Both the position numbers and the translations under genes were made by a program. 53,585 bases of DNA, taken from NCBI GenBank assembly GCA_025774805.1, contig JALGZR010000063.1:1-53585 (forward strand), written 5' to 3'. The DNA is from a bacterium (lineage in GTDB: Bacteria > ARS69). Under the pieces are notes generated by a model. The model made no database searches. It was not told the origin of the DNA and worked only from the letters and a program-made list of their open reading frames with translations. This document shows, piece by piece, positions 406 to 29,485 of this stretch; position 1 is the first letter of the stretch; each line of letters opens with the position of its first letter.

Positions 406-1792
406 GCGGATCGGCCGGGCCGTTCTCCTGGGTGCGCTCTGCGCGCTGGCGCATCCCGGGCCCGTAAGGTCCGCCGGTGAGGCCGACGGGGCGCAGATCG
501 TGGTGTACGTCGAGGTCCCCCCGAACGTCGTGGAGAAAACCCTCCTGCGACTCGCGAGCCTTACCCTCCAGGGGGCTTCCGGACGCGTGCCGATCGGGCT
601 CCTGGTCCGGGAGCTCGATTCGAGAGCGATCTCCGGACGTCAGGTCCGGCTCGCCGAGGAGGTCGTCCCTCCCGGTCTCTACGTGGACCTCGAGATGTGT
701 TTCGAGCTCATGGAAGCTCACCTCGGCCCGGCCGCGGTACGACCGGCGGTCCCGCCCGGCGGCGTGCGAATCCCGTTGAGCCTGGAGCTTTCGAACGGGG
801 GGGGAGCGCTGGTCGTGCTCCGCTGGTCTCCGGAGGCGATCGATCCGGAAGAGGAGTTTCATCGGCCGAGACTCGAGGTCGCGGATCCCGAAGTCCCGCC
901 CCTCGGATCTCTCGCCTTCGTGACGAATGAAGGGTCCGACAACGTGTCCGTCGTCGACCGGTTCTCCCAAAAGATCGTGGACGTCATCCGGGTGGGAGAG
1001 GGACCGCGGGGTATCACCGCCTCTCGGAGAGAACAGTGGCTCTACGTGGTCAACTCCTCTTCGAACGATCTCACGGTGATCGACGCGCGAACGCGCAGGA
1101 CGATCAAGAGAGCGACCTTGACGTTCGGCGACGAGCCGATTCGGGTGGCCCTGTCGCCGGACGAGAGCGAGCTCTATGTGCTCAACCGCGGCTCCAACAT
1201 GCTCTCCGTTCTCGACGCCCGCTCCCTCCAGGAGTCCTCGCGAATCGTGGTCGGAGAGGGCCCGCGGGCGATGGCGGTGGATCCCGTCACGGGATTCATC
1301 TACGTCGCGAGCGAGCTGTCCCGGACCGTCTTGATCGTCGATCCGGGGTCGGAGGAGACGGTGGCCTCGCTGTCCGTGGAGGTCTCCCCCGCGGAGATCC
1401 TTCTCGATGCCACGAACCGGCGGCTCTACGTATCCGGCGCCGATCAGCGGAAGCTGTCGATCGTCGATATCGAGACGTTGGAGACGGAGGAGAGGATGAA
1501 TCTCTGCTCTCCGGCCGTCGGTCTGGCGTACAATCCTCGATCGCGTCAGCTGTACGCGTCGCTGGAGGACTGTCGCGAGCTCGCCATTCTCAGCACCGTA
1601 GGCGTCTTCGAGATCGGCTCGATCGGCCTGGACGATCCGCCCGGCCTGATCTCCCTCGATCCGGAGTACGGACAACTGCTCACGATCCTGCCGACGGCCG
1701 GCGAACTGGCGTTTTACAGCGTCAACAGCAAGAGGCTCACCGGTATCGCCACTGTCGGCAAGCGTCCCCACATGGTCGTCGTTCCGAGATAG
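395..1792 (+). CDS. Secreted YVTN/NHL-type beta-propeller protein
   Basis: A 465-residue protein with an Arg-containing start and hydrophobic signal sequence (residues 1-26, ending PVRSAG). Residues about 30-160 form a domain I do not recognise. From about 170 on there are repeated blades of the YVTN/NHL kind, such as LAFVTNEGSDNVSVVD, LYVVNSSSNDLTVID and LYVLNRGSNMLSVLD. Such propellers are scaffolds rather than enzymes. The gene stops 2 bp before the outer-membrane barrel gene, so the two are surely co-transcribed, and it heads the cytochrome operon. The start codon at 395 lies inside the right end of a repeat element (ATGCAGGCTAG), so the first three codons come from the element. No other well-placed start precedes the signal sequence. 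Confidence 0.88.
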   Translation: MQARRIGRAVLLGALCALAHPGPVRSAGEADGAQIVVYVEVPPNVVEKTLLRLASLTLQGASGRVPIGLLVRELDSRAISGRQVRLAEEVVPPGLYVDLEMCFELMEAHLGPAAVRPAVPPGGVRIPLSLELSNGGGALVVLRWSPEAIDPEEEFHRPRLEVADPEVPPLGSLAFVTNEGSDNVSVVDRFSQKIVDVIRVGEGPRGITASRREQWLYVVNSSSNDLTVIDARTRRTIKRATLTFGDEPIRVALSPDESELYVLNRGSNMLSVLDARSLQESSRIVVGEGPRAMAVDPVTGFIYVASELSRTVLIVDPGSEETVASLSVEVSPAEILLDATNRRLYVSGADQRKLSIVDIETLETEERMNLCSPAVGLAYNPRSRQLYASLEDCRELAILSTVGVFEIGSIGLDDPPGLISLDPEYGQLLTILPTAGELAFYSVNSKRLTGIATVGKRPHMVVVPR

Positions 1793-1794
1793 AG

Positions 1795-3894
1795 ATGGAC
1801 TTTCGCCCTCGCGTGTCACGGACAAGCCGATGGGCCTCGATCCCGGGAATCGTCCTGGGGGCGGTTCTGGCGACCCCCCGAATCGGCGAGACGATTCTCT
1901 CGCAGAATCTTCGGGGCAACGTGGACCTGGCCGCCGTTGAATCCGAAGTCGATGGGGTCGGTCAGAGCACTTTCCGTCAGGAGTATACGGCGCGCTGGAG
2001 TCGACGACTCGCTCCCTATGTCACCCTTCGCACCGCCTTTCGATACTTCAAGTTCGATCTCGATCGGGACCAGGCGACAGGTTTCTCGCGAGACGAGTAC
2101 CAACCGTCCGGGGAGCTGGCGTGGAATCACCCGCGGTTCGCTCTCAGTTCGAGCCTTCGGCGGCGGAGTGCGCGGCTCCACGAATCCTCCGGCCGGCGGA
2201 TCAATGATGACGTCTCGATTTCCCTACGATCACGGGATATCGACTACCCCACCGTGTCCCTTCGCTTGGACTGGGGTCATATCTACGATTCGGAGGACCA
2301 GCGCGACCGAGACATCCTCGATCAGAGGCTCCAGACCGCCGCGGATTACTCTTTTCGCGGGCAGACGATGGCCTACCGGTTCACTCGTCGCACGACGGAC
2401 AACGTCGTGACGAACGTCGACGCCTCGACGAACACCCATCTCCTCCGCTGGAACGGTACGGCCGCTCCCCATCACCGCATGCGACTCACGTCGAACTACA
2501 CGTTTTCTCATCGGTCCCGAACCCAGGAGACACCCCAGGAGGGCGGATTCCTGACCGTCCTGTCCGGTGCGACCGGCCTGTACGTAGAGGATTCCTCGAT
2601 CGACTTCGGCGAGCTCGACCGTGCTCCCGCTCTTACCGACGGTAACACGGAGGACCCTGCAGTCCCGAGAATCGACATCGGAGGAGCTCTCGGGGATCGG
2701 AACCTGGGACTCGATCTCGCCTTCGTGAGAGAAGTGAGTACGCTCCATCTCTACGTCGACCGCCCGTCGGGCACGCAGCCGACCTGGAAAATCCTCTCTT
2801 CAAGCGACAACGTCTTCTGGCAGCTCTGGACGGCGAACCCCGCCGTCGAGTTCAACGCCGGACCGAGCCGGTACGAGATCTCCTTCGAATCCACGAGCAC
2901 GCGCTTCATCAAGGTCGTGAAGGGGGGCGTGAACGAGGTGCCCGAGGTCCTGGTCACGGAGCTCGAGGCGCTCGTTCAGGTCGAGGAGCGGGAGAAAGTC
3001 ACGCGAAAGGGAAGTACCCACTTCGTCGATGCCGGTGCCACCTACAGGGTCTCCGAAGCAATGCTCTCGACCGCCGACGTATCGTACGAGAAGGATTTCT
3101 CGGACAGTCCGGACGGAGGCCGGGACCGCGGCGACTACGTCCTCGGCACGAGATATCAGCAATCCCCGGTGGTCTTTCACCACATACGGTGGCAGCAGGG
3201 TTTCCAGTCCCTCGGCGGGCCGCTCGAAAACCTGACGAACCGATCCCTGGCGTATTCTCTCCTTGTCACACCGATCGAAACCCTGGACATTACGGCGAGT
3301 GCGACCTCCCGGTGGGAGGACACCGGAGACCTCCAGACGGATCGCATCCACACGGCGCTCGTACAGCTCACGGGGAATCCCCTGATCGGGATCAACATGT
3401 CCACGGAGGTCTCCCGGACGCGGAGGGTCCAGTTGATCCTCGGCACTCGTGACGATGTCTGGACCTACCGGTTTTCCGTGGACGGAACGGTGACGCGCTC
3501 CCTGGAGATGGCCCTGACTTACCGGCACCAGCGGATCACGATCAATCCGGGGTCCGACTTTCGCCGGCGCAGTCAATACACCGTCGACTTGAATTATCGC
3601 CTGACCCGGACGATATTCATGAGAGGCTCGTACAACCTTCTCGCCGAGGAGACGAACAGGGTAACTCAAGAATACTTCATGGGCTGGAATGCGACGCCGA
3701 AGCTCCGCCTCAGCGCGCTGGCATCCTTCACCGACCCGGGGGCGGACCGGGTGACCGAAAGATACAACGCGAACCTGACCTATGATCTCGGTCGTCGAAC
3801 GACCTTCTACTCTACGTATGCGACGTCCGACTTCACCGAAATCGGTGGAACGGAGACGACGTCGTTTCAAGCCGGTATGAGAACGGGGTTCTGA
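1795..3894 (+). CDS. Outer-membrane beta-barrel protein of the cytochrome operon
   Basis: The 699-residue protein begins with Arg-rich MDFRPRVSRTSRW and a short hydrophobic stretch typical of a signal peptide. The body is rich in alternating amphipathic strands with many Tyr, Arg and Thr, and it ends in ...MRTGF; a C-terminal Phe is the usual outer-membrane barrel signature. Residues about 290-400 look like a discoidin-type (F5/8) insertion, with LHLYVD, WQLW and TRFIKVV. Start chosen at ATG 1795, two bases after the upstream stop; the frame is open further upstream but that part is antisense-like noise over the propeller gene. In this context the barrel probably forms the sheath through which electrons or cytochromes cross the outer membrane (inference). 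Confidence 0.85.
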   Translation: MDFRPRVSRTSRWASIPGIVLGAVLATPRIGETILSQNLRGNVDLAAVESEVDGVGQSTFRQEYTARWSRRLAPYVTLRTAFRYFKFDLDRDQATGFSRDEYQPSGELAWNHPRFALSSSLRRRSARLHESSGRRINDDVSISLRSRDIDYPTVSLRLDWGHIYDSEDQRDRDILDQRLQTAADYSFRGQTMAYRFTRRTTDNVVTNVDASTNTHLLRWNGTAAPHHRMRLTSNYTFSHRSRTQETPQEGGFLTVLSGATGLYVEDSSIDFGELDRAPALTDGNTEDPAVPRIDIGGALGDRNLGLDLAFVREVSTLHLYVDRPSGTQPTWKILSSSDNVFWQLWTANPAVEFNAGPSRYEISFESTSTRFIKVVKGGVNEVPEVLVTELEALVQVEEREKVTRKGSTHFVDAGATYRVSEAMLSTADVSYEKDFSDSPDGGRDRGDYVLGTRYQQSPVVFHHIRWQQGFQSLGGPLENLTNRSLAYSLLVTPIETLDITASATSRWEDTGDLQTDRIHTALVQLTGNPLIGINMSTEVSRTRRVQLILGTRDDVWTYRFSVDGTVTRSLEMALTYRHQRITINPGSDFRRRSQYTVDLNYRLTRTIFMRGSYNLLAEETNRVTQEYFMGWNATPKLRLSALASFTDPGADRVTERYNANLTYDLGRRTTFYSTYATSDFTEIGGTETTSFQAGMRTGF

Positions 3895-3898
3895 GGCC

Positions 3899-4483
3899 GT
3901 GCGGTTCTTCTCGAGGATGTCGGTCGGAGCAACGATCTGGCTCGCCGTTGCCGATCTTCTCGCGGGCTGTTCCGGTATGGGCGCGACCACGTTCCTTCAC
4001 CGGGACTTCAACTTCGGTTTCATCGAAAGGGTTGCGGTCGTTCCTTTCGAAAACCTGACACGAGATCAAGGGGCCGGATTTCGGACCACCCGGTACTTCG
4101 TGTCGGAGCTCCTGGCCGCGGAAGCGTTCGACGTCGTGGAGCCCGGTGAGGTCGCGCGTGCCCTGGAGAAGCATGGAGAGGTTCGAACCGCCCAGCTGAC
4201 GCAGGCTCAGGTGATCGAGATCGGGAAGGACCTGAATGTCCAGGGCATCATTCTGGGATCGATCAGCGAGTCGACGACCACGCGAAGTGGATCAGGGAAC
4301 TTCAGCGTCGTCACGTTGGTCGTTCGAATGCTCGAGACGGAAAAGGGCACGACGGTCTGGTCCACCACGCACACGGAGGGGGGTCGGGGGTTCTGGTCCG
4401 CGCTCTTCGGGACGGGCGGCAAGTCCCTGAGTGAAGTCACCCGGCAATGTATCGAAAGGAGTGTGAAGACGCTTATCAAATGA
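3899..4483 (+). CDS. CsgG/GNA1162-like envelope lipoprotein
   Basis: A 194-residue protein starting with GTG four bases after the barrel gene. A hydrophobic segment ends in the lipobox LLAGC, so it should be lipidated. The following IERVAVVPFENLTRD...FVSELLAAEAFDVVEP is the alpha/beta fold shared by TolB N-terminal, CsgG, FlgO and GNA1162-like proteins, which assemble at the outer membrane. The last codons overlap the next gene by ATGA, so translation is coupled to a two-domain relative. Likely role: assembly or anchoring of the exported cytochrome system. The exact family is not certain. Confidence 0.82.
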   Translation: MRFFSRMSVGATIWLAVADLLAGCSGMGATTFLHRDFNFGFIERVAVVPFENLTRDQGAGFRTTRYFVSELLAAEAFDVVEPGEVARALEKHGEVRTAQLTQAQVIEIGKDLNVQGIILGSISESTTTRSGSGNFSVVTLVVRMLETEKGTTVWSTTHTEGGRGFWSALFGTGGKSLSEVTRQCIERSVKTLIK

Positions 4484-6129
4484 GGGCGCCGACGATTCCG
4501 TGGGACAGACGAGTGCAAGTTCTCGTCGTGGCAGTGGCGATGGGAGGGGCCCCGCTCCCGGCCGCCGATGCGGGCGGAGGTCTGGGCCAACTGGACCGTG
4601 AGGAGGCCAAGTTGGGAGTCCTTCTCTTTCCCAACCTCACGGGCACGAGCCGGGCCGTGGAAACGATCATGCCCCACATCTACGAGGAGCTCGACTCCCG
4701 AGGAGTCGTCTATACGGACCACGCGACCCTGCGCCCGACGCTTCGAAAGCACCGGATTCGCTTCGGAGGAGGCATTGGGGCCGAGGACGCTCGTTATATC
4801 CAAAGCGAGGCGGGCGTGACGTACCTGCTTCTGGGATCCCTCGACATGTTCAAAACGGAGGACAACCCGGAGGTTGCGGTGTCCGTCCGCCTTCTCGAGA
4901 TCGAGCGAATGAGTGTCTTCGCGGGCGCGAGCGCGGCGGCCACCGGTGAGGACTTTGCCGGCCTCTTCGGAGTCGGCCGGGTGACTTCCGTGGAGGAACT
5001 GGCGGGTCGCGTGGTGGCCCGGGTCTTCGAGCATCTCGATGAGGTGGTGGCGGAGATCGAGCGGAATCGCGAGCGCCGCGGCGGGCGACCGAAGGTCGCG
5101 GTCGTTTCTCTCGACGACATGTCCGGCACGGCGCACGCAGGTGACATCATGTCGAGTATCCTCGTTTCCGAGCTGGTAAGGGCCGGCTTCTCTGTCGTGG
5201 AGCCCGGAATGGTGACCGAGGTCTTCCGAAAGAACCGCAGGGTTTTCCGAGGCGGTATCGACTATCCCACCCTCCGGCGGCTCAGAGAGGATCTGAAGAT
5301 CGACTTCCTTCTTACGGGCGAGGTGGAGACGTTCCGGGCCGCCGTCGGGGCGATCGAGCACGCGCGGCCTTCGCTCGCCTTCGGAGCTCGGTTGATCGCG
5401 GGGCGAGACGGACGGTTGCTGATGACGTTCGACGAATCGCGAAACGGTGACGACTCCGAGACGGTATTCCGCCTGGGGCGGTTCCATTCGCTGGGTCGTT
5501 TGGCCCAAGACTCCGCCCGGAAACTCGTCCGGGAGGTCGAGAAGAGAGCGCAACGGGAGATCGAGGAAAGCCACATTCAAGAGTCCACGCCGGAAGAGAC
5601 CGTGTCGCAGGAGCCGACAGAAGGCACCGGGGAGGGCACCGGCGAAGTCGCGGGGATGGAGGGGAACGGAGACGTCGCCGTCGCGCCGGAGGAGCCGACG
5701 CAAGTCACGAGCGAAGGCGCCGGCGTGGTGGAGAGGGCCGCGGACTCTCCGGTCACTCCACCGGGGGCTGCCCCTCGCCCGCACACCGGGACTCAGGTGT
5801 CGGAGCCGGTTTCCCCGGTACCGGCACGGATCGGGGAGGATGGCTTCTCCGCGCCTTCCGCTTCCGCTCCGGGGTTCGCCGTCCATGTCAGCTCTTGGCG
5901 GAGAGAGGACTCCGCGCGCCGTGAAGCGGCGGCGCTCGAGGCGGTCGGGTATCCCGCGATTTGGCGGAGGGTCCTGGTCCCCGAGAAGGGATCCTGGTAT
6001 CGAGTCTATGCCGGCCCGTACGGCGATCGCCAGACCGCCCGGAACGCCGCCCGGGAGATCAAGTCCACCGGATTGAGCGAGTACGTACAGGTCCATCGCC
6101 TTCCGGCGGAGGAGGACGAGGGCGGGTGA
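4480..6129 (+). CDS. FlgO/CsgG-like protein with C-terminal SPOR domain
   Basis: Taking ATG 4480 (ATGA overlap with the upstream stop) gives 549 residues; an earlier in-frame ATG at 4447 would put extra residues in front of a clean signal peptide (RRVQVLVVAVAMGGAPLPAADA). Two successive domains start with LGVLLFPNLTGTSRAVE and KVAVVSLDDMSGTAHAGD; both have the FlgO/TolB-N pattern of hydrophobic strand, helix and 'VVEPG...R'. A long Glu/Pro/Thr/Gly linker (about residues 365-465) leads to a SPOR domain (FAVHVSSWRRED...WYRVYAGPYGDRQTA), which in other proteins binds denuded peptidoglycan. The protein may tie the outer-membrane complex to the cell wall. It is followed 2 bp later by the prolyl-isomerase gene. 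Confidence 0.85.
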   Translation: MRAPTIPWDRRVQVLVVAVAMGGAPLPAADAGGGLGQLDREEAKLGVLLFPNLTGTSRAVETIMPHIYEELDSRGVVYTDHATLRPTLRKHRIRFGGGIGAEDARYIQSEAGVTYLLLGSLDMFKTEDNPEVAVSVRLLEIERMSVFAGASAAATGEDFAGLFGVGRVTSVEELAGRVVARVFEHLDEVVAEIERNRERRGGRPKVAVVSLDDMSGTAHAGDIMSSILVSELVRAGFSVVEPGMVTEVFRKNRRVFRGGIDYPTLRRLREDLKIDFLLTGEVETFRAAVGAIEHARPSLAFGARLIAGRDGRLLMTFDESRNGDDSETVFRLGRFHSLGRLAQDSARKLVREVEKRAQREIEESHIQESTPEETVSQEPTEGTGEGTGEVAGMEGNGDVAVAPEEPTQVTSEGAGVVERAADSPVTPPGAAPRPHTGTQVSEPVSPVPARIGEDGFSAPSASAPGFAVHVSSWRREDSARREAAALEAVGYPAIWRRVLVPEKGSWYRVYAGPYGDRQTARNAAREIKSTGLSEYVQVHRLPAEEDEGG

Positions 6130-23910: not shown

Positions 23911-25062
23911 CTACCCCCCCTTGCCCGGCGCCCCTCGCGCGAGAACGTCGCGATAGACCGAGAGGATCTTCTTCACTTTTCGTGAGGTGTCGAACTCCCG
24001 GATCCTCTGCTGCGCCGACGACGCCATCCGCTGACGCAGATCGGGTTCCGCGACGAGTCGCGCAAGCGCATCGGCGGTCTCCTCGACGGATCCCGGTGGC
24101 ACGAGTATTCCGTCTCGACCCGAATCGATCAAATGGGGGACGCCCCCGACCCTCGAGCAGAGAACGGCGCAACCGGCCGCCATGGCCTCCATGACGGACA
24201 CGGGCATGCCCTCGCGATACGTGGGGAGCACGAAGATGTCGGCGGCACGGATCCACCCCCGGGCCACTTCGGGGGGCAGTATTCCGAGCAGCGTCACCTG
24301 CCCCTGCATGTCGTCCCGCTCGATCCTGCGCCGGTACTCTTCCAGGGAATGTCCCCCGATCAGGTACACGTGAGAATCGGGGTTCCACCGATCGCGTAGC
24401 CGCGCCACGGCATCCAGAAGGAGGGGTGCCCCCTTCGATTCGAGCTTCACTCCCACGAAGAGCACGACGACCTGCCCCGAGGGGAGACCCAGGGACCTCT
24501 TCTCCTCCTCCTTGCTGCGCACGGCAAACTCGTCCGTCGAGACCCCCATGTCGTTCACGGTGACTTTGGACGGATCGACCCCGAAGTCGCGGACCATCAC
24601 TGCCTTCAGATCGTCGCTGACCGCGATCACGCAATCGGCGCACTTCAGAGCTCTTCCCGTCAGCCATCGGTGCACGGCGCCTCTCGCGGGGAAGAAGTGG
24701 ATGTCACTTCCGTGGCTCGTCACGACGAGGGCGCTGCCCCGCATCCTCGAAGCCAGCCACCCGATGAGACCGGTGGGGAAGAGGTTGTGGGCGTGGATGA
24801 GGTCGTATCTCCGCCGCATCGCGGTCGCGAGAGACCGGACCAGAAGTCCGAGGTACTTGCCCAGGACGGCGATCCGCCCGCCGGACTCGCCCCGGGGCGC
24901 CACCAGATCATTTTGGATGCGGAGCCTCGCGAACTCCTCCTGATGTCGCCGGACGAAGATCCCCGAGTAAGGCTGTCGGGCCGTGGGATACATGTTCGTC
25001 ACGGTGAGTACGGCGAGGTCGTCCCGATCGGTGCGCGCTCGGCTCGGGGAGGAGCCCGTCAC
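23911..25062 (-). CDS. GT4-family glycosyltransferase
   Basis: 383 residues, GT-B fold. N-terminal part: LTVTNMYPTARQPYSGIFVRRHQEEFARL and DLIHAHNLFPTGLIG; donor-binding half: VVLFVGVKLESKGAPLLLDAV, VTLLGILPPEVARGWIRAADIFVLPTYREGMPVSVMEAMAAG, where the E-G-x-P-x-x-x-x-E motif is typical for GT4 enzymes. It probably transfers a sugar from a nucleotide donor to a lipid-linked or surface glycan in the cytoplasm. GTG start overlapping the stop of the KDPG aldolase gene by GTGA, so the two are translated together although no shared pathway is obvious. It converges on the radical SAM gene with only 6 bp between stops. Confidence 0.92.
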   Translation of the reverse strand: MTGSSPSRARTDRDDLAVLTVTNMYPTARQPYSGIFVRRHQEEFARLRIQNDLVAPRGESGGRIAVLGKYLGLLVRSLATAMRRRYDLIHAHNLFPTGLIGWLASRMRGSALVVTSHGSDIHFFPARGAVHRWLTGRALKCADCVIAVSDDLKAVMVRDFGVDPSKVTVNDMGVSTDEFAVRSKEEEKRSLGLPSGQVVVLFVGVKLESKGAPLLLDAVARLRDRWNPDSHVYLIGGHSLEEYRRRIERDDMQGQVTLLGILPPEVARGWIRAADIFVLPTYREGMPVSVMEAMAAGCAVLCSRVGGVPHLIDSGRDGILVPPGSVEETADALARLVAEPDLRQRMASSAQQRIREFDTSRKVKKILSVYRDVLARGAPGKGG

Positions 25063-25781
25063 CGCGCCGCGTCCATGGCGCGTCGCAGCCGGCGCGCCGA
25101 CTCCTCCGCTCCCTCCAGCGTGAACCCGACGGGAAAGACCTCACTTCCTACCCCCACGGCGACCGCGCCCGCAGCCAGGTACTCGGACAGGTTGCTCGCG
25201 GTGGGACCGCTCGTGGGCACGAGGGGGACGTCGGGAAGCGGTCCGCGGATCGACCGGAGGAAGTCCGGCCCGCCGAGGGGTCCGGCCGGGAAGACCTTCA
25301 CGAGCCGGGCGCCCTGGCGGTGCGCGGCGAGAATCTCGGTCGCACTCCCCGCCCCCGGAACGGCGAGAAGACCGAGACGGTGCGACTCATCGACGACCTC
25401 GGGAAGGAAGACGGGAGAGAGAGCGAAGCGACCGCCCGCGCGGGCGACAAGACGGGCGTCCTCCGGGGAGAGCACCGTGCCCGCTCCCACCACGGCCTCT
25501 CCCTCCTCCGCGAGGGTGCGGATGACGTCCAGCGCTCCGGGGGTGGTGAGCGTGATCTCGAGAACATGGAGACCCCCGCGAAGAGCGGCGCGACAGGCCT
25601 CCAGAACGGGATCTTCGGAACCCATGCGGACGGCGACGATGACGCCGTCCTCGAGAACCGCCCGGCGGGTTCTCTCGATGACCGCGTTCCGGTCTTCGGG
25701 GGGTTGCGATGAAGAGGATGTCATCTCACGCCGTCCCTTCCGGGCTCTCGCGGAGGAGCGACCCGCGGAGAGAGACGACAT
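25059..25781 (-). CDS. eda: KDPG/KHG aldolase
   Basis: 240 residues from ATG 25781 (GAGG five bases upstream), or 221 from ATG 25724; the first 19 residues are low-complexity, so the shorter form is possible. Class I aldolase of the Entner-Doudoroff pathway, cleaving 2-keto-3-deoxy-6-phosphogluconate to pyruvate and glyceraldehyde-3-phosphate. Signatures: HVLEITLTTPGALDVI with the catalytic Glu, VGAGTVLSPEDARLVARAGGRFALSP, and ARLVKVFPAG with the Schiff-base Lys, then LVPTSGPTASNLSEYLAAGAVAVGVGS. No edd or sugar kinase lies nearby; it shares a transcript with a glycosyltransferase gene. Confidence 0.93.
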   Translation of the reverse strand: MSSLSAGRSSARARKGRREMTSSSSQPPEDRNAVIERTRRAVLEDGVIVAVRMGSEDPVLEACRAALRGGLHVLEITLTTPGALDVIRTLAEEGEAVVGAGTVLSPEDARLVARAGGRFALSPVFLPEVVDESHRLGLLAVPGAGSATEILAAHRQGARLVKVFPAGPLGGPDFLRSIRGPLPDVPLVPTSGPTASNLSEYLAAGAVAVGVGSEVFPVGFTLEGAEESARRLRRAMDAAR

Positions 25782-25876
25782 GCTAGCCTCGATCCGTCAG
25801 AAAATCTCGGCGAAAAGCGCTGGCGCTCGCACGATAGCATGCCATCCGCGGCCGTGCTCGCCCTCGCCAATACTCA

Positions 25877-25892
25877 CTTATCGTGAGATAAG
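25877..25892. promoter_or_regulatory. Palindrome upstream of the aldolase gene
   Basis: CTTATCGTGAGATAAG is a 6-bp perfect inverted repeat with a 4-bp centre; an overlapping alternative CTCAC-TTATC-GTGAG (25873-25887) uses the same bases. It lies about 100 bp before the aldolase start and just after the selenoprotein stop (minus strand). It could be an operator or a weak terminator; there is no T-run. Confidence 0.35.
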
Positions 25893-25920
25893 CTCGAGGG
25901 GTTTTCCGCGCGGGTCGCCG

Positions 25921-28167
25921 TCAGTGGAGCCGGATCGCTTGGGCCGTCCGCGCCTCCCCTTCCGTCTCCAGGCGGAAGTAGTAGACGCCGGCGGCCGCCC
26001 GGCGGCCGGTCTGGTCCCGGCCGTCCCAGACGATGCGATGCTCCCCGGGCCGCCGGATCCCGTCGGCCAGAACCCGGACGCGCTGTCCCGCGATGTCGTA
26101 CACGGTGACGCGGGCGCGGGAGTCAACCGGCAGCCGGAAGCGAACCGTTGTCGCGTCGAGGAAGGGATTCGGCGACGGGGGGGAGAGCAGGAGGCCGGGC
26201 GTCACCGAAGCGGAGACCGGGGAGGGGACGGCGGAGCCCCCGCCGTCCGGTCTCTCGATCCCGAGGAGCTCGTCGATCACCGCGATGATCTTCTGCGGGT
26301 CGTACTCTGGGGACCAGTACCGTACGATCCCCTCCTGATCGATGATGAAGTCCTGCGGGTAGGGCGCCCAGGGATCGGGCACGCGATATTCGAGGTAGAC
26401 CGAGTTCCTCCCGTCCTCGAGTCCGATGAAGCGCATGCCGTAGGTGTCCTTGAACTCCTGCGAGTGGCTCATCCTCCGCGTGATCTCGAAGACGACCACG
26501 TCTTCCGGATCGTAGCGGGAGTGGATCGAGGCATCCGTCGCTGCAGCCTGCAGCGGACAGATGGGTCACCAGTTCGCCCCGAATTCGAGGTACACCACCT
26601 TTCCGAGATACCGCGTGAGCCAGTGGAAGTTCCCGTCGGTGCCGCGGAGTTGAAAGAACGGCGCCGGCGACCCCGCCTGCGGGAACGTGGTGTTGTTCTG
26701 GTAGACGAACTGGGTGGAGAAGATCTGATCCCGTGCGAACTCGTCCGGATCGTTCGAGAAATAGTGGATCTTCCCTTGGACGGAGGGGGCGCCGGTCGCG
26801 GTGACCGTGACGTGTTGGACCCCTCCCGGGGGAACCATGAAGTCCGTGGGGGAGGCGGAGAACCCGATCGGGGTGGTGATGAAATCGACGTGGAGGGTTC
26901 CCGATCCGGTGTTCCGGACCTCGACCGTCGTGTCCCGAGGGGTGGTCACCGCCCCGAAGTCCAGGTGCGTGGGGACGATCTCGATGTCCGATCCCGGATC
27001 GTCCTCCGGAAGGTAGACCGCCATCCCCTCCCAGTCGGCGACGACGTAGACCGTGTCACCCGCGCTGTTCACACCGGCCCCGGCTCCCATCGCGTACACC
27101 CGGGCCTGATCCCATCCGGTGCGGAGGATGCTTCTCGGATCGGAGACGTCGTATTCCTCCAGATACGGATAGGCCCCCACGGCGAGTCGATCTCCGACGA
27201 GCCCCATCGAGAACGCGTTTCCCAACGTCGAATGGATGTCAAGGAGGAGGGGATGGTTCGGATCGGCGATGTCGACGGTGGCGACGCCGTCCGGTCCCAG
27301 CGCCAGGATGGCCGTGGCTCCGGAGATCACGATGTCGTTCGCCAGACCGGGAAGGGGGAGGGTCGCCACCGGAGCGGGAGTCCCCGAGAGGCGCACGACT
27401 TCGAGACCGAAGCGGCCGTTGGCCACGAACAGATACCCGCCCGACGCCTCGATGTCCCAAGCGGCGTTGGAGGTCAGTCCGATCCGGCCGCCGTAGGAGA
27501 GGCTCATCCTCGGGCCGACCCGTGTTCGTCCGGCCACCTGGGCCTCCCCGGCCCGAGCCCCGTCGGCCGGTGCTCCATCGACCCGACCGTCGTTCACTCG
27601 ACCGTTCCCGGCCCGCGCGTCCCCGGTCCTCGAGTCGACACCCCACGGTCGGCCCGCGCTCACGCTCGAGTCCGGGAAGCCACCCTCGCGAATGTGGAGA
27701 ATCTCGATGCCGATTTGGTGGGAGGCCACGTAGAGCGAGTCCCCCACGCGGACGCCCCCCTCGTAAGAGGTCCTCGCCTGCAGGGGATCGTAGGCGTCGA
27801 GGAGCACCGGAATGCCGGAGGAGATGTCGTACGCCTCGACGCCGTCGAGGTGCCGGTAGCTGAAGAGCGCGTGTTCGGAGACGGAGGCCCGCCAGGACGC
27901 TCCCCCCTGCGTCGACACCCGGACCGGATCGGCCGGATCGGAGATGTCGTAGGTCTCCAACCCGGGACGGCCGAAACCCACCGACGCGTAGGCGTAGTCC
28001 CCGACGACCTGGAAGGACATCACGTGAGCGTACTGATCCAGGTTTCTACCGACGAGGCGGAGCCCGTCGACGCCGACCTGGGCGAGGGTCGGTCCCGAGG
28101 CGGCGAACACGGTCACGGCGAAGATCCCCGCCGCGGATGCCGGGCGGCCGAGACGAGACGTCTTCAC
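25921..28167 (-). CDS. Secreted selenoprotein: LVIVD propeller, thioredoxin domain (UxxC), sorting domain
   Basis: Reading TGA at 26566-26568 as selenocysteine gives one 748-residue protein. GTG 28167 starts a signal peptide (KTSRLGRPASAAGIFAVTVFA, cut near TLAQ). Residues about 35-400 are LVIVD-type propeller blades (YAYASVGFGRPGLETYDISDPADPVRVS and similar). Residues about 410-485 are an ASH/DUF1573-like Ig domain (LDFGAVTTPRDTTVEVRNTGSG). Then a peroxiredoxin/TlpA-like fold: APFFQLRGTDGNFHWLTRYLGKVVYLEFGANW-U-PICPLQ, followed in the same frame by VVVFEITRR, FIGLEDG and PQDFIIDQEGIVRYWS. The tail (SPNPFLDATTVRFRLP...GVYYFRLETEG) is a FlgD-like sorting domain. The Sec replaces the first Cys of the CxxC redox motif, and a SECIS-like hairpin follows. 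Probably an extracytoplasmic thiol oxidoreductase; partner unknown. Confidence 0.85.
26539..26555 (-). promoter_or_regulatory. Bacterial SECIS-like hairpin
   Basis: On the minus-strand RNA, ten bases after the UGA, CGCUGCA-GGC-UGCAGCG forms a 7-bp perfect stem whose loop begins with GG. The UGCAGG(U)CUGCA core is nearly the apical part of the E. coli fdhF SECIS, and the distance from UGA to loop (17-18 nt) fits the bacterial range. Confidence 0.75.
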
Positions 28168-28186
28168 GGGGACCGCCGAACCCCGC

Positions 28187-29485
28187 TCACCGCGGCCCGT
28201 CCGGGTCGAGATAGTGAGCCTTGATTCTTCCCCAGCCGACCGCGTCGACCGCGACCTGGTCGCACTTGCATGCCGGGCCCCGGGCTCCGATCGGCCCGCA
28301 CGGCGCCCCGTCGACGAACGGGGAGCAGTCCTGCAGATCGGCGGCGTCGGCACACAGGTGCGGATCCACGGATACATTGCCGTCCGATTCGGTGGGATCG
28401 GTCACGAAGCCGGCATACTCGTCGCCCTGGTTCCCGTAGGTGTCACAGCAGGCGAAGGCCGGCGTCGCGAAGGGAAAGGCGACGTGGATGCCTCCCGCTC
28501 CCGAGTTGAAGGCGGTGATCACTCCCGTGAAGGACGGAGAGGACACGCCATCGATGAGGATTCCCCCCCCGCCCGACGCCGCGGAGTTGAAGGCCAGCGT
28601 CGCGAGCTCCACCGACGGGGACGAGTCCATGATGTACAGTCCCCCCCCGTACCGTCCGCGGAGTTTCGGACCACGGCGTTCCCCCGAAAGATGCCGTCAC
28701 TCGACCGCGTCCACGCGACGGCTCCCCCGTGGCTCGTGGAGTGATTCCCCTCGAAGTCATTGTCCTCGATGGTCGGATCAGAGCTCTCCAGGAAAATCGC
28801 GCCCCCGAACGCGGCGCCGTTCCCCACGAACCGGTTTCCGCTGATCGTGCCGTCCCCGTTCTGCATGGCGATCGCGCCCCCGTTGATGGCGGACGAGCAT
28901 CCGAGGAAATCGTTGCCACGGATCTCCGCCGTTGCGGCCAGAACGAACAGAGCCCCGCCGAACCCACAGCAGGCGTAGCTGTTGTCGAAGACATTGTCCT
29001 CGATGATCGGTGACCGCTCCGAAACCGACGAAGACGGACCCCGCCTGGCCGCCGAACGCGTCGAGGAACACGTTGTTCCGCAGGGTCGGGGATCCGCCTT
29101 GGATCCAGACGGCCGCCCCCTCGAAACCGTCCGCTCCGGTAATGGTGAATCCCTCGATCACGGTCGACGCGGAAGCCTGGGGACAGCTCACCCCCCGCGT
29201 CGAGAGGGCGGCGTCGGTGACGTCGATGCGAGTGACCGCGGGGCCGTCCGTGGAGAGCAGAACGACGCCGGAGGTCATGGTGACCCCGACCCAATGATCG
29301 AAGGGATCCTGAACGAGATCCGTGTAGACGCCGGGCGTGACGAGCACGGTGTCTCCCGCCGCCGCCAGGGCCATGGCGCCGGGAATCGTGGGGGCACTCC
29401 CGGATCCGTCGGCGTGAACGACCCACGTGGCCGCCGCCGCGGGAAGGGAGAGAAACACGACGAACAGACCAACAATTCCGAACAT
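28187..29485 (-). pseudogene. Secreted parallel beta-helix protein, two frameshifts
   Basis: Begins at ATG 29485 with a signal peptide (MFGIVGLFVVFLSLPAAAATW) and a DUF1565-like start (VHADGSGSAPTIPGAMALAAAGDTVLVTPGVYTD). Repeated right-handed beta-helix turns follow (ASTVIEGFTITGADG, SPTLRNNVFLDAFGG, SPIIEDNVFDNSYACCG, TISGNRFVGNGAAFGG, DPTIEDNDFEGN). The coding signal leaves its frame near 29015 and changes again at a run of eight G at 28641-28648. Adding one G there joins SADGTGGG to LYIMDSSPSVEL exactly. The final part ends GRIKAHYLDPDGPR, as in related secreted proteins. It stands 20 bp before the selenoprotein gene. Either a decaying gene or sequence errors. Confidence 0.75.
28641..28648 (-). 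repeat. Homopolymer of eight G at a frameshift
   Basis: Eight C on the plus strand (G on the coding strand) at the point where the beta-helix reading frame changes. A ninth G restores the frame. Slippage-prone either in the cell or in sequencing. Confidence 0.7.

Follow-up and report, generated by a model that had tools for sequence, protein, structure and literature searches.

A gene on the minus strand of the analyzed stretch of bacterial DNA (53,585 nucleotides; here, the window) almost certainly uses an in-frame TGA to insert selenocysteine (Sec), placing it, as read from the sequence, at the redox site of a large thioredoxin-like protein destined for export. We hold with high confidence the explanation as a whole, namely, that the gene encodes a selenoprotein in which SelB and a hairpin direct Sec to codon 534 of an exported thiol redox protein. 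Read from position 28167 down to 25921, the frame has the TGA at 26566 to 26568 as its sole internal stop, as reported in the first-pass annotation of this DNA, and ends with a TGA at 25921 to 25923. The internal TGA is found in the context LEFGANW-U-PIC, where it occupies the position of the first cysteine of the thioredoxin W-C-x-x-C site and gives W-U-P-I-C. Gene calling with translation table 11 breaks the gene into a 603-aa ORF (26566 to 28377) and a 192-aa ORF (25921 to 26499), the kind of split that the same annotation had anticipated. The features identified in and next to the gene, all on the minus strand, are as follows.

25921 to 28167, minus: selenoprotein gene, 748 codons plus the terminal TGA, with a GTG start assumed; single frame, 67% identical to a paralogue.
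28078 to 28167, minus: probable Sec-type signal peptide, residues 1 to 30, MKTSRLGRPASAAGIFAVTVFAASGPTLA-Q, read by eye from the sequence.
27010 to 28068, minus: LVIVD-repeat beta-propeller (PF08309, 1.6e-10; all-beta model resembling 8-bladed propellers).
26773 to 26991, minus: Ig-like domain of the ASPM-SPD-2-Hydin/choice-of-anchor D type (PF22544, 1.2e-4, under the curated cut-off; NF012200, 3.5e-4).
26260 to 26679, minus: ResA/TlpA-like thioredoxin domain with the UGA inside (PF00578, 48.8 bits versus a cut-off of 26).
26566 to 26568, minus: UGA predicted to be read as Sec (residue 534).
26557 to 26559, minus: codon for residue 537, the partner cysteine of the UxxC motif.
26539 to 26555, minus: putative bacterial SECIS (bSECIS) hairpin, 6-bp stem and AGGCU loop, the second base of which is G.
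25960 to 26148, minus: FlgD-Ig/T9SS type A-like C-terminal domain (PF13860, 1.5e-10).
28187 to 29434, minus: upstream beta-helix (NosD/DUF1565-like) gene, located by tblastn with the N-terminal half of homologue L110 and by Pfam matches on L110.

The two sides of the TGA lie in one frame and had been proposed to make up a full thioredoxin fold, with which both the PF00578 match and a structural model agree. In an AlphaFold2 model of the thioredoxin domain spanning the UGA, made apart from the rest of the protein (pLDDT, 87.5; pTM, 0.85), the best PDB matches were ResA (1su9; TM score, 0.85) and a Geobacter thioredoxin-family protein (3hdc; TM score, 0.77). The full-length model is of moderate quality (pLDDT, 64), and in it U534 is located just before a helix comprising residues 537 to 551. 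A paralogue in the same genome (locus L049, contig C261) carries TGA at the same codon; its N-terminus differs from that of the window protein but is similar to it, and its Ig-like domain matches PF22544 above the cut-off. The scores against the sorting-domain model TIGR04183 (cut-off, 23 bits) were 22.4 bits for the window protein, 23.5 bits for the paralogue, and 34.7 bits for the homologue in genome G059. The propeller of the window protein also contains an insertion of ~55 residues rich in Gly, Ala, and Arg (residues about 160 to 215; about 27520 to 27690, minus strand) that is not present in the paralogue or the other homologues.

When 386 genomes were searched with a thioredoxin-domain profile, each of the six best matches (290 to 108 bits) carried one TGA: two in the window's genome (G000), two in G126, and one each in G059 and G060. 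The seventh-ranked match (82.8 bits) is without a stop, and the tier below the six consists of ResA/TlpA-like proteins. The G059 homologue is 29% identical to the window protein, again with TGA at the same codon. The UGA occupies the same column in all six family members, whereas the three aligned distant homologues (L117, L118, and L119) have Cys both there and at +3; the first-pass annotation had suggested looking for such Cys-containing homologues. The +3 Cys (residue 537) is invariant in all 13 aligned sequences. No close full-length homologue with Cys was found in the 386 genomes, and the Sec/Cys pairing is thus seen in distant homologues only. Scanning the genome contigs with two patterns, one of which had Cys at the Sec column and was blind to TGA copies, recovered G059 alone as a close relative. 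Outside the window's genome, the UGA-bearing homologues occur in three genomes (G059, G060, and G126) and two other phyla; G126 belongs neither to the window's phylum nor to that of G059 and G060 (represented by five and six of the genomes searched, respectively), so the family is counted over three phyla.

The first-pass annotation had also described a hairpin with a GGC loop ten bases after the UGA. Such a hairpin is found at 26555 to 26539 (CGCUGC-AGGCU-GCAGCG), beginning 10 nt past the UGA, and can alternatively be drawn with 7 bp and a GGC loop. The SECIS element of Escherichia coli fdhF is a hairpin ~10 nt after the UGA, with GG in the loop and a UGCAGG run, and the window hairpin is similar, although its stem has no visible bulged U and other members of the family have an AGUU loop. 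An Rfam scan of the window returned nothing at gathering scores, so the SECIS assignment rests on published constraints and on covariation. The published bSECIS model (PMC13188914) specifies a loop of 3 to 9 nt, a stem of 4 to 16 bp, an MFE of ≤ -7.5, a G at either of the first two bases of the loop, in most cases with G or U next to it on the 3' side, and a distance of 16 to 37 nt from the UGA to the loop. With a 5-nt AGGCU loop, 6 bp, G at position 2, a distance of 16 nt, and an MFE of -21.9 kcal/mol for the 44-nt hairpin stretch (z, -4.1), the window hairpin falls within these limits.

The register of the hairpin is identical in seven sequences with different stems (e.g., GUCCGC/GCGGAC, GUCCAC/GUGGAC, and CUGUGG/CCACAG, in addition to that of the window), and the loop invariably begins with AG. 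Among these seven sequences, three of which have one common stem, so that there are fewer than seven independent stems, all six pairs are altered on both sides and 97.6% of the cells are paired, with one mismatch in G060. The covariation score was 0.841, versus a mean of 0.263 for shuffled alignments, none of 500 shuffles reached it, and slid versions came nowhere near. The two copies in the window's genome are identical at 43 of the 45 nt after the UGA, and there are 2 synonymous changes in the 13 codons that follow it, versus 9 in 28 and 7 in 25 flanking codons. When the downstream codons were recoded synonymously, the six pairs were kept in 65 of 2,000 trials (3%), and the observed MFE was reached in 0 of 500. 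Under loose rules (at least 6 bp), 379 of the 1,175 TGA triplets in the GC-rich window have a SECIS-like hairpin, and the hairpin by itself is therefore weak evidence; the exact register with AG at the loop start occurs once among the 1,175. Chance is excluded by the conservation of the UGA, the frame, and the hairpin together in independent copies.

Decoding genes were also identified. As to selA, selB, tRNA-Sec, and selD, which the first-pass annotation had named as the genes to look for, the first three are present in the window's genome (selA, 536 bits; selB, 383 bits; tRNA-Sec, 94 nt with a UCA anticodon, 72 bits), and selD was not found in the assembly (96% complete, 284 contigs), where nothing scored above PurM level. 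The only weak match, L018, was rejected as a selD candidate, being a PurM by sequence. A genome without selD would make no selenophosphate, and the UGA could then be read through with cysteine or another residue; this is very improbable, since selA, selB, and tRNA-Sec are retained, the assembly is 96% complete, and a selD with an in-frame TGA, which would make SelD itself a Sec-containing protein, is present in all four genomes of the same family (G001 to G004) as well as in G059, G060, and G126. Because of its presence in all four same-family genomes, the missing selD is most simply put down to a probable gap in the assembly. The three more distant genomes have selB as well as selD, and G059 and G126 also have tRNA-Sec, which was not found in the G060 assembly (83% complete). 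The decoding genes, the TGA- and Cys-containing homologues, and the constraint and covariation of the hairpin all support the reading of this gene as a selenoprotein gene that was originally put forward.

Less probable still is that the TGA is an ordinary stop that a mutation or a sequencing error has introduced into a pseudogene or split gene undergoing decay. The metagenome-assembled genome is fragmented, and the upstream beta-helix gene runs in frames -2, -3, and again -2, with shifts near 29015 to 29046 and 28642 to 28648 that cancel out; these could be either assembly errors or real decay. However, TGA occupies the identical codon in five other copies, of which four lie outside the window's genome, and by this the explanation is already refuted, and the thioredoxin domain requires both halves. 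In addition, comparison of the two copies in the window's genome indicates that both sides of the UGA evolve as protein, under purifying selection (dN/dS, 0.29 before the UGA and 0.39 after it; above 1 in shifted frames).

In one gene, a TGA reassigned genome-wide to a sense codon (e.g., Trp or Gly, codes 4 or 25) would look the same as a Sec codon, but the chance of this is negligible: (i) TGA terminates the selenoprotein gene, its paralogue, selA, selB, glmS, and other genes; (ii) there is no internal TGA in the 3,485 codons of eight other genes; and (iii) the position is Cys, and neither Trp nor Gly, in the three aligned homologues. Equally negligible is the possibility that the minus-strand frame is the antisense shadow of a real gene in the 1,184-aa plus-strand ORF at 24670 to 28224, which is the longest ORF of the region but has no Pfam match and shares its sequence with two minus-strand genes, an intact one for KDPG aldolase and, in part, one for a glycosyltransferase, whereas the minus-strand frame has several types of domains and conserved homologues. 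This spurious, domain-free ORF is one that a gene caller might favor.

In homologue L110 of G126, the beta-helix is continuous and fused in frame before the propeller-Ig-thioredoxin(U) protein, in a single 1,104-aa frame (1285 to 4596, plus strand) with a C-terminal region that has no FlgD-Ig match. This fusion, together with the separate adjoining beta-helix gene in the window, suggests that the two products are linked.

The frame, the conservation of the UGA, the covarying hairpin, the decoding genes, and the thioredoxin fold are computed results; we infer actual Sec insertion, export, and an enzymatic redox role with its substrate and partners. SelB carrying Sec-tRNA(UCA) would bind the hairpin, which lies 10 nt past the UGA, and deliver Sec at codon 534, and translation would proceed through the full thioredoxin domain with the active site U-P-I-C. 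The product would be exported and retained outside the cytoplasm by means of the N-terminal signal and the C-terminal FlgD-Ig tail, and the selenolate/thiol pair would most likely be a thiol-disulfide (or peroxide-type) redox center on a beta-propeller scaffold.

Other thioredoxin-like genes with an in-frame TGA were encountered as well, namely, L113 (YWUGSC), L114 (YSUPFC), L115 (TWUPSC), and L116 (TWUGGC), which are probable further exported selenoprotein genes; by eye, the ends of L114 and L116 resemble FlgD/T9SS-type tails. Standard gene calling turns one such gene into two wrong pieces, and, given that several more were encountered, selenoproteins appear to be missed among the exported UxxC proteins of bacteria in which FlgD-Ig tails abound. 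The window gene adds a well-supported selenoprotein in a phylum represented by few of the genomes searched.

This is almost certainly a new bacterial selenoprotein, of a known kind but in an unusual architecture, and its decoding mechanism is a textbook one. The literature searched yielded no match to the architecture as a whole, and selenoproteins and LVIVD never occur there in the same paper. On balance, we slightly favor the view that it belongs to a new subfamily, made up of large selenoproteins that are exported (LVIVD propeller, Ig-like domain, U-P-x-C thioredoxin domain, and sorting-type tail, with a beta-helix fusion in one lineage), which in the genomes searched exists only in the Sec form and may constitute an extracytoplasmic selenium redox system in poorly known phyla.

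Among the closest known systems is the family of Prx-like thiol:disulfide oxidoreductase selenoproteins, listed in Table 1 of PMC13188914 with PF00578 and UxxC/UxxU motifs. Like these, the window protein has a PF00578 domain, Sec first in UxxC, and a bSECIS directly downstream, and its thioredoxin domain fits that known class; set against the family description in that source, it differs in that the domain is part of a far larger, probably exported protein with propeller, Ig-like, and sorting-type domains. Typical peroxiredoxin selenoproteins have a TxxU motif, whereas the motif here is W-U-P-I-C. The window protein resembles ResA, TlpA, and CcmG in its fold, its W-x-P-x-C site, and its predicted extracytoplasmic setting but has Sec for the first Cys and a multidomain context, and it scores 34.9 bits against the ResA subfamily model (curated cut-off, 170). 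It shares with the WAxxUGC selenoproteins (NF041054) the nature of a ResA-like selenoprotein, but these have a UGC motif instead of UPxC, and only the G059 homologue matches that model (28 bits; cut-off, 300). Finally, the choice-of-anchor B proteins (TIGR04312) likewise combine an LVIVD propeller with anchoring domains that vary at the C-terminus; what the window protein has beyond them is Sec and the thioredoxin domain, and again only the G059 homologue matches the model (31 bits; cut-off, 100).
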